Positions 9,884 through 18,861 of a stretch of 25,458 nucleotides of DNA are shown here, in pieces. Origin of the DNA: a virus. The translations under genes and the position numbers were made by a program. Numbering within the stretch: position 1 is the stretch's first letter; every line of letters begins with the position of its first letter. The notes beneath the pieces are model-generated. The model searched no databases. It had not been told where the DNA came from and saw nothing but the letters and a program-made list of their open reading frames with translations. The stretch spans positions 1-25,458 of IMG/VR virus record IMGVR_UViG_3300013014_000120, one strand, 5' to 3'.

Positions 9884-9933
9884 AGCCCTTTGGGCTCGGG
9901 CCTCTTGACAGCGGGGTACTGTCGCTGTATACT
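9884..9933 (+). promoter_or_regulatory. sigma-70 promoter preceded by hairpin
   Basis: TTGACA (9905-9910), 17-bp spacer, TATACT (9928-9933). A hairpin, AGCCC-TTT-GGGCT (9884-9896), lies just upstream, and ACAGCG/CGCTGT (within 9908-9928) form an inverted repeat across the spacer. The ATG at 9944 leaves a leader of only about 4 nt. Confidence 0.8.
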
Positions 9934-9943
9934 GATCACTATT

Positions 9944-10447
9944 ATGAATCAACAGACAAACTCAGTAGTAGACTTTTTCATCAGCAATGGCTGCAGGCAT
10001 ATGACCAATATACCTGGCAATCAAGTGTTTTTAACAGATGTCAGTGCCAGCACCTTGGTGTGGCATGAAGGACCAGTGGTCATTGAACTCTATCTCATGT
10101 ATCCCAATTTGACCACTGGACTACACAGTCATCCCTTTGATAATCAGGTCATATATCTACATGGACAGATGTATGGACATCGGAAAGATCCAGACACCGG
10201 GGCTGTCATAGAGGGAGAACTGTTTGAAAAATTGGGTGGGCCACCCCGGCTGGGACCTCTGCTGCCCGCCGGAACACCGCATGGGTTTAGAGCCGGGCCT
10301 CGGGGAGCCGTGGTCTACAACGTGCAGATCTGGCCTGAATCTGTCCGTGATCCGCTCAGCGCCGCACTGAATATTCATGGTAATTTTTCTCTAGGACCTA
10401 TACATACCGAATTCCTGAGAAGTTTGGGGCGTGTCGTAGACGAATAA
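9944..10447 (+). CDS. cupin-fold protein, 167 aa
   Basis: Start 9944 is chosen because the longer frame (from 9842) would run through the promoter. Cupin motif 1 elements LHSHPFDNQVIYLHGQMYG (residues about 65-83) and motif 2 LPAGTPHGF (about 107-115) supply His residues for a metal site. It is a single beta-barrel of unknown substrate. Enzymes of this type modify sugars or small acids. It lies next to the tmRNA gene and has its own strong promoter. Confidence 0.75.
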   Translation: MNQQTNSVVDFFISNGCRHMTNIPGNQVFLTDVSASTLVWHEGPVVIELYLMYPNLTTGLHSHPFDNQVIYLHGQMYGHRKDPDTGAVIEGELFEKLGGPPRLGPLLPAGTPHGFRAGPRGAVVYNVQIWPESVRDPLSAALNIHGNFSLGPIHTEFLRSLGRVVDE

Positions 10448-10450
10448 ATA
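10444..10450 (+). promoter_or_regulatory. T4-late-type promoter in front of tmRNA
   Basis: ATAAATA (preceded by GA) overlaps the stop of the cupin gene. Transcription from it would start near 10457, which is where pairing of the tmRNA acceptor piece begins. Late timing is inferred from the motif. Confidence 0.5.
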
Positions 10451-10739
10451 AAGAATTGTTGTAACCACCGAGAGGAAAGAAGCAAGTCCAAAGACGGGCA
10501 AGACGAGGGTTCGACTCCCTCCCGGTCCACCAAAAGCATACTCAAGTGACGCTGGGGAAGAGTAATAGTCAGCGGTTGATAAATCTTCCAAGTATGCTTT
10601 TGATGGGCCGGCCATGGTATCGATTGACGGATCAGTAGACGAGTGGACAACAGGGCAGGCGATCTCCCTAAAAGAAGCAAAACTAGTAAATGCAACAGCA
10701 TCTACACTTGAGTTCTTGAACAACAGTTCTATCGTTGTA

Positions 10740-10772
10740 GCCAACGATGAGCAGTTTGCTCTAGCTGCCTGA
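10740..10772 (+). other. tmRNA proteolysis-tag reading frame
   Basis: Resume codon GCC followed by codons for NDEQFALAA and TGA. The end ALAA is the signal for ClpXP-type proteases and the AND start is the SspB-type region. Resembles betaproteobacterial tags such as ANDERFALAA. Confidence 0.9.
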
Positions 10773-10822
10773 ACAGCGGCGACTCCGAGGTAGGAAAGAC
10801 CTCGTCACCGAACCCAACCAGG

Positions 10823-10848
10823 ACCCGCTGTAATGGCGGGTTTCTTTT
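10823..10848 (+). terminator. rho-independent terminator of tmRNA
   Basis: ACCCGC (10823-10828) pairs with GCGGGT (10836-10841) with a 7-nt loop, followed by the T-rich TTTCTTTT. Confidence 0.85.
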
Positions 10849-12641: not shown

Positions 12642-13208
12642 ATGGAAGACATAGAAAATTATCAGGGTCATTTACTGGCCGCACATCCCAAAAGAGCCAA
12701 GGGATTCCTCAGTCATGGAGTTGTATTGGTCATAGATCAAGATCACACCGGCAGCCTGGGTCTGCAGATCAACAAACAGCTGAACAATGGCAGCACACTG
12801 GCTTCGGTCATGAGCAACATAGATTTGACCTTGGACACAGATCAACCTCTGTACATGGGAGGGGCCGAAAACACCAATCGTATCATGATGCTGCACAGCA
12901 TGGACTGGACATCTCCTACCACCACTGCTATCAATGGCTGCCTAGGGCTCAGTAATGATGTCAGCGTGTTGGCTGCTATATCAGCAGGAGAAGGTCCACA
13001 GTATTATCGTGCCATTGCAGGATTCCTAAAATGGCCGCCTGGGCATCTAGAAGGTGAAATATCAGGAGATGCTCCTTGGCATGATTTATCCACCAGCTGG
13101 AGCACCGTGCCTGCAGATCTCGATCTGGTATTTGGCCTGGATGGCGAAGAACAGTGGCACCATGTGATCGAGTCACATGCACGACTGCAGATCGCCACCT
13201 GGTTCTAA
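12642..13208 (+). CDS. YqgE/AlgH family (UPF0301) protein
   Basis: 188 aa. The family's N-terminus is clear: GHLLAAHPKRAKGFLSHGVVLVIDQD (residues about 7-32), then GSLGLQINKQ (about 35-44) and a GGAENTNRIMMLHS segment. The C-terminal half has YYRAIAGFLKWPPGHLEGEI in place of the usual AGYAGWGPGQLE. Cellular members are conserved and of uncertain role (AlgH was linked to alginate regulation). Start 12642 is the first ATG; a TTG at 12615 would overlap the promoter. It converges with the helicase gene (4-nt overlap). A complete AlgH in a phage is uncommon. Confidence 0.88.
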   Translation: MEDIENYQGHLLAAHPKRAKGFLSHGVVLVIDQDHTGSLGLQINKQLNNGSTLASVMSNIDLTLDTDQPLYMGGAENTNRIMMLHSMDWTSPTTTAINGCLGLSNDVSVLAAISAGEGPQYYRAIAGFLKWPPGHLEGEISGDAPWHDLSTSWSTVPADLDLVFGLDGEEQWHHVIESHARLQIATWF

Positions 13209-16836: not shown

Positions 16837-17408
16837 GAATACTCGTGACTAAGTGACTCACAGATAAGATTCATATGTACTATGACTACCATAGCGTAGG
16901 AGATGGCATGAGCCTTTTTAAAGTAGTATTCATCACCTGTTGGTTTAATCCAAATTTCCTTCATTACACTGCTCCAATCTTGACCAATCAGATGTTTTTT
17001 TCCTGGTCTGATCATGGCCAGTACGGCAGCTAATTGTTCTATGTTTCTCGGTTTCATTTGCCGTAAAGTTGATCCATGACCACTGACGTGAAACAGGAGG
17101 TTGACAAATTCGTCTTGTTCTAATAGATCCCATAAAGGCTCAGTTGACATCAATTGTTCAAGATGTTGATTGTCTTTGACATCTCGGTAGACACTGACAT
17201 TAAGAAAATCTATCTTGAAGTATCCTCTACCTTCCGCTGTTTTATAGTCGATGTTACTGAGTCCAGTAATGGGATTGTAGGGAATGTTATGACAGTAGAC
17301 ACCTGTATTGTGTTTTTTAAAAACACCATCTTCTAATCTAGAGGCGGGGACATGCTGAACAATGTCAAGTATTTTTGATCTGTCCGCAAAATCTAAATCA
17401 ATGTCCAT
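16833..17408 (-). CDS. miniature DnaE (Pol III alpha) core-like protein, 191 aa
   Basis: MDIDLDFADR (1-10) corresponds to the PDxDxDF motif of DnaE that carries two catalytic Asp. HNTGVY (33-38) parallels the HxAGV segment, GYFKIDFLNV (62-71, D67) the KFDFLGL motif with the third catalytic Asp, MIRPG (132-136) the ALxRPG motif, and KKAHAISYA (164-172) the NKSHAxxYA motif. Motif order is that of DnaE, but PHP, most fingers, clamp-binding and OB domains are absent. Family resemblance is motif-based. It may be a relic, a regulator or a tiny polymerase. Starts inside the kinase stop (11-nt overlap), last gene of the operon. Confidence 0.7.
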   Translation of the reverse strand: MDIDLDFADRSKILDIVQHVPASRLEDGVFKKHNTGVYCHNIPYNPITGLSNIDYKTAEGRGYFKIDFLNVSVYRDVKDNQHLEQLMSTEPLWDLLEQDEFVNLLFHVSGHGSTLRQMKPRNIEQLAAVLAMIRPGKKHLIGQDWSSVMKEIWIKPTGDEYYFKKAHAISYAMVVIVHMNLICESLSHEYS

Positions 17409-18168
17409 TTATTTCTTCTAGACTAGGGGAGTAGTTTCCCTGATGTTGAACAGACACAGCTCCCGCCTTATTGGCAAACAGTATAGCCTCTTCTACGCTA
17501 GCAGTCATTAGATATTGATATACTAACGCTGCCAAAAAAGTATCTCCTGCTCCACAGACATCTACCAGTCCTACCTTAGGTGCTGGGTAAATTTTTCCAT
17601 TATATCTGGCACCTTGATCTCCCATGGTTGTAATTATGTTTGAGCAAAATGTTTTGGCCAGACTGAATTCTTTGTTATTGATTTTTACAAATGCTCCTTC
17701 AAATCTGGCCAGGTTAGTTTTTTTACTGTCGATGAATACAGGACCATGACATTCTTTAATAATGATTTCTATGTGTTCGTAGGTGATAAAACCTTTGTCA
17801 TAATCTGAAATTACCACAACATCATAATCTGTCAAGGGATGTGTAATATGGCCAGACCATTCTGGAAGGTAAGGTTCGTCATCTACCCTTAACAGGTGTT
17901 GCCCTGATCTTTGATCAATATATCTAGTCTTGGTAATTGCTGACTCATTAGTGATAAAATCAACCTCTATTCCCAGACTGGAAAAATTATTCTTCACATT
18001 AGAAGCCATACCTTGAGTGGTATAGTGATTGTGGATTTTCATAACAGGTACAGGTGCTTCAGGACTGAGTCTGTCACAGGTGCCTGTGAAATATTCATCA
18101 ATACAACTATCGCCGATTAGCAATACGTTGAATAATTTCTGTGGTTGAGTATTTTTCAATTCGTTCAT
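17398..18168 (-). CDS. PfkB/ribokinase-family kinase (HldE N-domain-like)
   Basis: 256 aa. The N-terminal strand FNVLLIGDSCIDEYFTGTCDRLSPEAPVPV (13-42) is the substrate-side motif of heptose-7-phosphate kinases (HldE/RfaE N-domain). SDYDKG (121-126) and the anion hole GAGDTF (206-211, catalytic D209) complete the fold. It should phosphorylate a sugar phosphate at C1, for example a heptose. Its start overlaps the nucleotidyltransferase gene by 62 nt, an unusually long overlap. In E. coli both activities are one polypeptide; here they are separate and in reversed order. Confidence 0.85.
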   Translation of the reverse strand: MNELKNTQPQKLFNVLLIGDSCIDEYFTGTCDRLSPEAPVPVMKIHNHYTTQGMASNVKNNFSSLGIEVDFITNESAITKTRYIDQRSGQHLLRVDDEPYLPEWSGHITHPLTDYDVVVISDYDKGFITYEHIEIIIKECHGPVFIDSKKTNLARFEGAFVKINNKEFSLAKTFCSNIITTMGDQGARYNGKIYPAPKVGLVDVCGAGDTFLAALVYQYLMTASVEEAILFANKAGAVSVQHQGNYSPSLEEINGH

Positions 18169-18508
18169 AAAATTTTATTTCTTTGCAATATTCTGAACCT
18201 ATAATAGGTCGTCCTTGATAATCACTGCCTTTGACCATTATATCACAGTGTTGTTTTATCAATTCTACTAATTCTTCGTCGGTGTCAAAAACATATACCT
18301 CGTCAACCATATATAGACATTCTAACATGGTTTTACGGTCTTGTTGGGTGTTTATGGGTCTGTCGAGCCCTTTCAATTCACAAATACGACGATCACTGTC
18401 TATGGCAACTGTCAACTTTTCCCCGTGACTGAATGCATATTCTAGAAGTGCTAAATGACCTATGTGCAGTATGTCAAAGGTGCCGTTAACAAATACTTTT
18501 GTGTTCAT
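18107..18508 (-). CDS. cytidylyltransferase-fold nucleotidyltransferase (HldE C-domain-like)
   Basis: 133 aa, close to the size of the isolated HldE/RfaE adenylyltransferase domain. VFVNGTFDILHIGH (5-18) carries the HxGH nucleotide-binding motif. DSDRRICELKGLDRPINTQ (about 37-55) and the KGSDYQ motif near 94-99 complete the active site. It transfers AMP or CMP to a sugar-1-phosphate. It is coupled by ATGA to the cupin gene upstream and overlaps the kinase gene downstream, so all three are made together. The exact sugar is not shown. Confidence 0.88.
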   Translation of the reverse strand: MNTKVFVNGTFDILHIGHLALLEYAFSHGEKLTVAIDSDRRICELKGLDRPINTQQDRKTMLECLYMVDEVYVFDTDEELVELIKQHCDIMVKGSDYQGRPIIGSEYCKEIKFYERIEKYSTTEIIQRIANRR

Positions 18509-18861
18509 CGTTGACTGTCTCCTGGCAGGACTCGATAGTTGTCTTCAACACTATCTGCGGTACTAACTTCAATAATAGTGCCTTCTTCTATACAGTACAG
18601 TTGATGAGGCAGCAGTGGAGGATTGTGCCATACATCTCCAGGATTCAGCAGCAGCTCACTGATCTTAGCCGTAGTGGTGTCAATGAATCTCACAGTGAAT
18701 TTACCATCTAACACATACCAGGTCTCATCTTTCACTGAATGAAAATGCATACTGAATTGAGCACCAGTATTAAATTTCATCAATTTGCCGCAGTATTTGT
18801 CGTTAGTGGCCCAGATATTTTCATATCCCCACCCCTTTTCTACAAAACCATCTAGTCTCAT
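18505..18861 (-). CDS. cupin / mannose-6-phosphate isomerase type II-like protein
   Basis: 118 aa. EKGWGYENIWATNDKYCGK (8-26) is the opening of ManC/MPI-type cupins, and FSMHFHSVKDETWYVLDG (36-53) and NPGDVWHNPPLLPHQL (about 72-87) carry the metal-binding His/Glu set. It probably isomerises or epimerises a sugar in the pathway of the next two genes. ATGA overlaps on both sides bind it into the operon. Confidence 0.8.
   Translation of the reverse strand: MRLDGFVEKGWGYENIWATNDKYCGKLMKFNTGAQFSMHFHSVKDETWYVLDGKFTVRFIDTTTAKISELLLNPGDVWHNPPLLPHQLYCIEEGTIIEVSTADSVEDNYRVLPGDSQR

Follow-up and report, generated by a model that had tools for sequence, protein, structure and literature searches.

A two-piece tmRNA is known to work in Caulobacter, where RNase P and tRNase Z are probably involved (PMC3985003). 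Among phages, two-piece tmRNAs were reported in the OM43 phage Melnitz and in about 50 other aquatic phages (PMC9004378), and phage entries are included in tmRNA databases (PMC11915505). In this study, we analysed a 25,458-nt stretch of DNA (the window), an IMG/VR record classed as viral, which carries a gene of this kind on its plus strand. The preliminary description of the window had presented a late promoter in front of an ssrA as unusual; rarity was overstated there, since the aquatic phage tmRNAs had already been published.

Melnitz resembles the window in that a circularly permuted ssrA is carried by a T4-related myophage and the host SmpB is presumably used. On the other hand, the Melnitz tmRNA is alpha-like and is preceded by an early promoter together with a glutamine riboswitch, while the window gene scores best with the beta model, although below its cut-off, and has a predicted tag of 26 residues. 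The closest named nucleotide match is the permuted tmRNA of the cyanophage Synechococcus phage BUCT-ZZ01 (85% over 53 nt, in the acceptor piece), which scores 111.9 bits with the Rfam model RF04321 and has a proximal P2 of the same type (CGGGTAA/TTGCGCG), but differs in its 12-residue tag ANDETFSMALAA and in its spacer. The Sinorhizobium phage Phosso is, like the source of the window, a jumbo phage with a related UvsX (68% identity) and a permuted tmRNA, but its tmRNA is of the alpha type with a spacer of roughly 400 nt. This Phosso gene (L262, 349596-350198) is unannotated and was found in the present analysis of the cultured phage. Mycobacteriophage DS6A also encodes a tmRNA-like RNA, but that RNA has no tag frame and inhibits the host tmRNA.

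Phage origin of the window and anatomy of the tmRNA gene

In the minus-strand half of the window lie genes for a UvsX-like recombinase, UvsY, a UvsW-type helicase, a DnaB-like helicase, a primase, a DNA polymerase fragment and a virion protein. Among cultured phages, the closest relatives of the UvsX and the helicase are found in the jumbo phages Vibrio 2.275.O, Phosso, CBB, Atu_ph07 and PA5oct. This gene content makes the phage origin secure, and on the same grounds the window was confirmed as a fragment of a T4-related jumbo phage. Permuted tmRNA genes do occur in some bacteria, and the locus might in principle be the host's own ssrA on a bacterial chromosome; we consider this to have practically no chance of being right, as phage replication, recombination and virion genes fill the window, IMG/VR classifies the record as viral, and no convincing bacterial contig carries a permuted tmRNA with the ANDEQFALAA tag. 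A bacterial-chromosome origin was thus ruled out by the gene content. A second contig, L018, is near-identical to the window (99.98% over 12.3 kb). The window also encodes a PfkB-type kinase, a heptose-1-phosphate adenylyltransferase-like protein and a cupin (17398-18861, minus strand), directly upstream of the gene for the 191-aa DNA polymerase fragment, and an AlgH-like (DUF179) protein (12645-13208, plus strand).

The region 10456-10845 on the plus strand was confirmed to be a circularly permuted tmRNA gene. RF04321 (tmRNA_permuted) matches positions 10471-10772 with 79.3 bits (E 6e-14; curated cut-off 47 bits), and membership of this family is supported by the score, the gene order, the acceptor stem and T-arm, P2, and a resume codon with a tag frame closed by a stop. 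The score is among the lowest of the sampled set, in which 47 of the 48 records over the cut-off reach 97-143 bits. The beta_tmRNA model RF01850 gave 68.9 bits, under its curated cut-off of 84, and assignment of the window gene to the beta type was dropped, although many phage relatives do exceed that cut-off. The gene shares with the beta type the gene order, the GUUGU/ACAAC distal P2 and a tag end of the ANDE-FALAA kind, but has 16 extra tag codons and a longer 5' arm of the acceptor piece. ARAGORN gave no match to the gene.

The acceptor (3') piece precedes the coding piece and spans 10456-10532, its start being placed from the position of the upstream box and the family alignment. It contains the distal P2 strand GTTGT (10458-10462), the proximal P2 strand CGGGCAA (10495-10501), the T-arm GAGGG-TTCGACT-CCCTC (10505-10521), and the acceptor 3' strand CCGGTCC (10522-10528) followed by A73 and an encoded CCA (10530-10532). 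A 72-nt spacer (10533-10604) without an ORF follows, closed by a perfect 10-bp stem (10533-10542/10591-10600). The coding (5') piece (10605-10845, 3' end approximate) begins with the acceptor 5' strand GGGCCGG (10605-10611), which forms all seven pairs with its partner, including G3-U70. The proximal P2 forms five of its seven pairs with 10624-10630. About a dozen extra bases caused the covariance model to misalign the distal P2 strand; nevertheless GTTGT pairs perfectly (5/5) with ACAAC at 10647-10651. Further along lie a hairpin at the PK1 position (AGGG...CCCT, 10652-10669), upstream of the resume codon, the tag frame, a hairpin GAGGTAGGAAAGACCTC (10787-10803) that matches the conserved post-tag hairpin of the relatives, and a terminator-like hairpin, ACCCGC/GCGGGT with a T-rich tail (10823-10848), which is absent from the consensus-scan list. 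The permuted order, the 7-bp acceptor stem with G3-U70, the T-arm, the P2-like pairing between the pieces and the downstream terminator in the preliminary description were all borne out, as was the gene itself by the covariance search that it proposed.

The same elements are conserved among phage relatives. G3-U70 is present in every one of the 81 parsed loci (80 from relatives, one from the window), and acceptor positions 4-7 vary in a compensatory manner, with three or four pair types at positions 4, 5 and 6. Proximal P2 is paired in 547 of 560 cells, against 430 (maximum 456) with shuffled partners, and distal P2 in 57 of 76, against 26 (maximum 35); the shuffles ignore the relatedness of the loci, so these P2 figures are supportive rather than exact. 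In many phage tmRNAs (L010, L014, L020, L021, L066, L068 and others) the T-loop TTCGA is replaced by GGCAG-- or TGC-A--, and the GGC-G form resembles the alpha-type T-loop.

The resume codon and the length of the tag

The sequence ANDEQFALAA, which the preliminary description took for the whole tag, is present at 10740-10769, but it is probably only the degron-like C-terminal end of a longer one. In 79 of the 81 parsed loci it is directly preceded by the hexamer GTAAAC or GTAAAT or by a close variant; in the window and L018, GTTGTA stands there instead, and GTAAAT|GCA is found 48 nt upstream, in frame and without an intervening stop. This context points to GCA at 10692-10694 as the most likely resume codon, which gives a predicted 26-residue tag, ATASTLEFLNNSSIVVANDEQFALAA, with a TGA stop (10692-10772), that is, 16 codons beyond ANDEQFALAA. 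It has been reported that the choice of resume codon is tied to UAG/UAA-type bases just upstream (PMC4236655). Should translation resume instead at GCC 10740, the tag would be the ordinary ANDEQFALAA, as it is in by far the most of the phage relatives that were parsed, and the 48-nt stretch would be an untranslated insertion. We regard this as unlikely, because the six bases before GCC 10740 are GTTGTA rather than GTAAAC/T, while the spacing between GTAAAT|GCA and the PK1-position hairpin is the usual one (22 nt in the window, 20 in L068), and the GTAAAT|GCA context recurs in long-tag phage tmRNAs that lack ANDEQFALAA.

A search with the start pattern recovered three further types of permuted phage tmRNA, each scoring above the RF04321 cut-off. 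They share the AGTAAATGCAACAGCATCTAC start but differ in their ends; their tags are ATASTKGSFKFSGKGVKLASARREAVMA, a one-residue variant of ATASTKGSFKFSGKGVKLASARREAVMA in another tmRNA, and ATASTSEVVVSGKNVKFSARTVKAQSFAV. Since the window supplied the search pattern, selection accounts in part for the shared ATAST start. The place of the pattern was not selected for, and in seven matching contigs, including L018, it coincides precisely with the resume site of a permuted tmRNA. In the contig pairs L279/L280, L289/L292 and L288/L291 the tags have 28-29 residues, with AVMA or SFAV in place of LAA at the end, and the first 21 nt of the tag are identical, wobble bases included.

Promoters, proposed function and alternatives

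Directly upstream of the tmRNA gene is an ORF (9944-10447, plus strand) with no PHROGs or Pfam match. Its stop codon overlaps AATAAATA (10443-10450, plus strand), a box of the NATAAATA late-promoter type, one mismatch from TATAAATA and with no TTGACA at -35. The motif NATAAATA was reported as a cyanophage late motif (PMC2984593). In the window alone, near-TATAAATA matches number 33 where 26 were expected, which does not exceed chance, and the position of the box was therefore examined across relatives, using 65 non-redundant phage permuted tmRNAs aligned on the T-arm and boxes 40-75 nt upstream. A near-TATAAATA box occurs at the conserved position in 19 of these loci, against 4.3 in shuffles (maximum 12), and an exact one in 4, against 0.27. 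A TATAAT box is found in the same region in 19 of the 65 as well (2.4 in shuffles), TTGACA-like sites rise about 20 nt further up, and some TATAAT boxes are accompanied by TTGACA. The two box classes partly overlap, and the window belongs to the NATAAATA group without a -35 element. In addition, a sigma-70 promoter-like site (TTGACA-17-TATACT, 11/12; 9905-9933, plus strand) lies upstream of the preceding ORF, about 0.5 kb from the tmRNA, and could read through that ORF into the gene. It is plausible, from its sequence and position, that AATAAATA acts as a late promoter as previously proposed: the box does sit just upstream and its position is enriched across the family, though its presence in the window is no more than chance predicts. 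The proposed late timing agrees with the published motif, but TATAAT boxes are about as common, and these boxes together with the upstream sigma-70 site make mixed early and late control as likely as late-only control.

We propose that the T4-related jumbo phage encodes a complete two-piece tmRNA for ribosome rescue with a 26-residue tag, and we assign this reading a probability of about 0.73. It builds on what was observed of the gene order, the pairings, the tag frame and the conservation within the family, while processing, charging and tagging are proposed from the Caulobacter two-piece precedent and the features of the family. A single precursor would be transcribed from the promoter just 5' of the acceptor piece, the upstream sigma-70 promoter, or both, and the spacer hairpin would bring its ends together. 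Host RNase P may cut at G10605 and host 3' processing may trim the acceptor piece to its encoded CCA, so that two RNAs would remain, held together by the acceptor stem and P2. The host AlaRS would charge the tmRNA via G3-U70, and host SmpB would bring it to ribosomes stalled on broken messages. Translation would then resume at GCA 10692 and add the 26-residue tag, and since this ends in ANDEQFALAA, the chain would be degradable and the ribosome recycled. The benefit for the phage may be that ribosomes stay free while messages are cut during infection.

SmpB has been reported in some huge phages by a survey of these phages (PMC7162821). The preliminary description had suggested looking for SmpB elsewhere in the genome; none turned up in the 30 records with a tmRNA that were searched, several of which are 300-357 kb long, with positive search controls, while the window itself is a fragment and its SmpB gene could lie outside. 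The phage tmRNA presumably relies on host SmpB, as these 30 records suggest.

Two proximal P2 mismatches, the low RF04321 score and the beta_tmRNA score below its cut-off were counted against a role in rescue. The mismatches and the low score would suit a decaying passenger gene acquired from a host, and permuted tmRNA is absent from 6 of 7 cultured jumbo relatives, with none over the cut-off in the sampled UvsX-relative records. These records are fragments, however, and are uninformative on vertical inheritance; as most fragments are incomplete, such absence is weak evidence. Moreover, the tag frame, acceptor, T-arm and terminator of the window gene are intact, a near-identical copy exists in L018 and long-tag relatives occur elsewhere, so that decay appears improbable. 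Slightly less improbable, but still doubtful, is that the RNA interferes with the host, either by competing for its SmpB and ribosomes or by re-tagging proteins to alter their fate. The tag-less tmRNA of DS6A inhibits the host tmRNA in E. coli (PMC11915505), and the long-tag relatives end in AVMA or SFAV, not LAA/VAA; yet the window gene still has a complete ANDEQFALAA end, a stop codon and G3-U70, the parts required for normal tagging. Ribosome rescue is thus the reading that we prefer.

Phage relatives and their spacers

A search for the ANDEQFALAA tag in viral contigs gave at least 120 stretches, and 48 of 50 viral records sampled from it contain a permuted tmRNA over the cut-off. These make at least 48 additional viral records, besides the jumbo phage Phosso. 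The tag pattern was found in only 17 of the bacterial genomes searched, and a single short contig among these matches, L127, scores as permuted. This 3-kb contig of a Gammaproteobacteria MAG has the phage-type tag, a permuted tmRNA and many tRNAs, and is probably a misbinned phage piece. The cellular permuted beta-type genes that were read have other tags (ANDERFALAA, ANDEHFAIAA, ANDENFAMAA). A search with the pattern CGGGYAAGACG... retrieved phage contigs with only T-arm-like ends, and a permuted tmRNA over the cut-off in L018 alone. Two phage contigs, L140 (7197-7227) and L141, have tmRNAs in which the last 31 nt (T-arm, acceptor and CCA) are identical to the window acceptor piece; they were rejected as permuted relatives because these are one-piece tmRNAs, and the shared T-arm and acceptor may be due to chance.

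In at least 12 relatives, an ORF with a ribosome-binding site fills the excised spacer and ends within 4 nt of the coding piece, against 0.84 in shuffles (maximum 4). Pfam matches among the spacer reading frames were DUF2061 (4e-21), Oxidored-like (4e-12; in L013/L040, without a clear start) and CxxCxxCC (1e-5). The pN/pS of the spacer ORFs is about 0.2-0.35 in three groups, and by this measure they are under purifying selection, with the cargo swapped. L010 and L021 have unrelated spacer genes between tmRNA sides that are 96-100% identical, which gives the spacer the look of a cargo site.

Our results indicate that aquatic phages, jumbo phages included, commonly carry permuted tmRNA genes. 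Tags that are long, constant at the start and variable at the end, as well as spacers with small protein genes under purifying selection, were not found in the literature searched, which is not proof of novelty. We tentatively suggest, as a possibility of rather less than even odds, that the tmRNAs with 26-29 residue tags, an ATAST start and interchangeable ends (ANDEQFALAA here; REAVMA and QSFAV elsewhere) form an undescribed subfamily by which phages may set the fate of rescued proteins, and that permuted phage ssrA loci more widely are cassettes with small exchangeable protein genes in the excised spacer. What a phage gains from its own trans-translation RNA, and whether a small messenger is released from inside a tmRNA precursor by tRNA-type processing, can now be tested. 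Small ORFs preceded by a ribosome-binding site were seen in the spacers of L008, L010, L015, L019, L021, L022 and L023, and also of L025, L039, L041, L069, L076, L086 and L089, and the spacer ORFs often stop at a TGA immediately before the coding piece.
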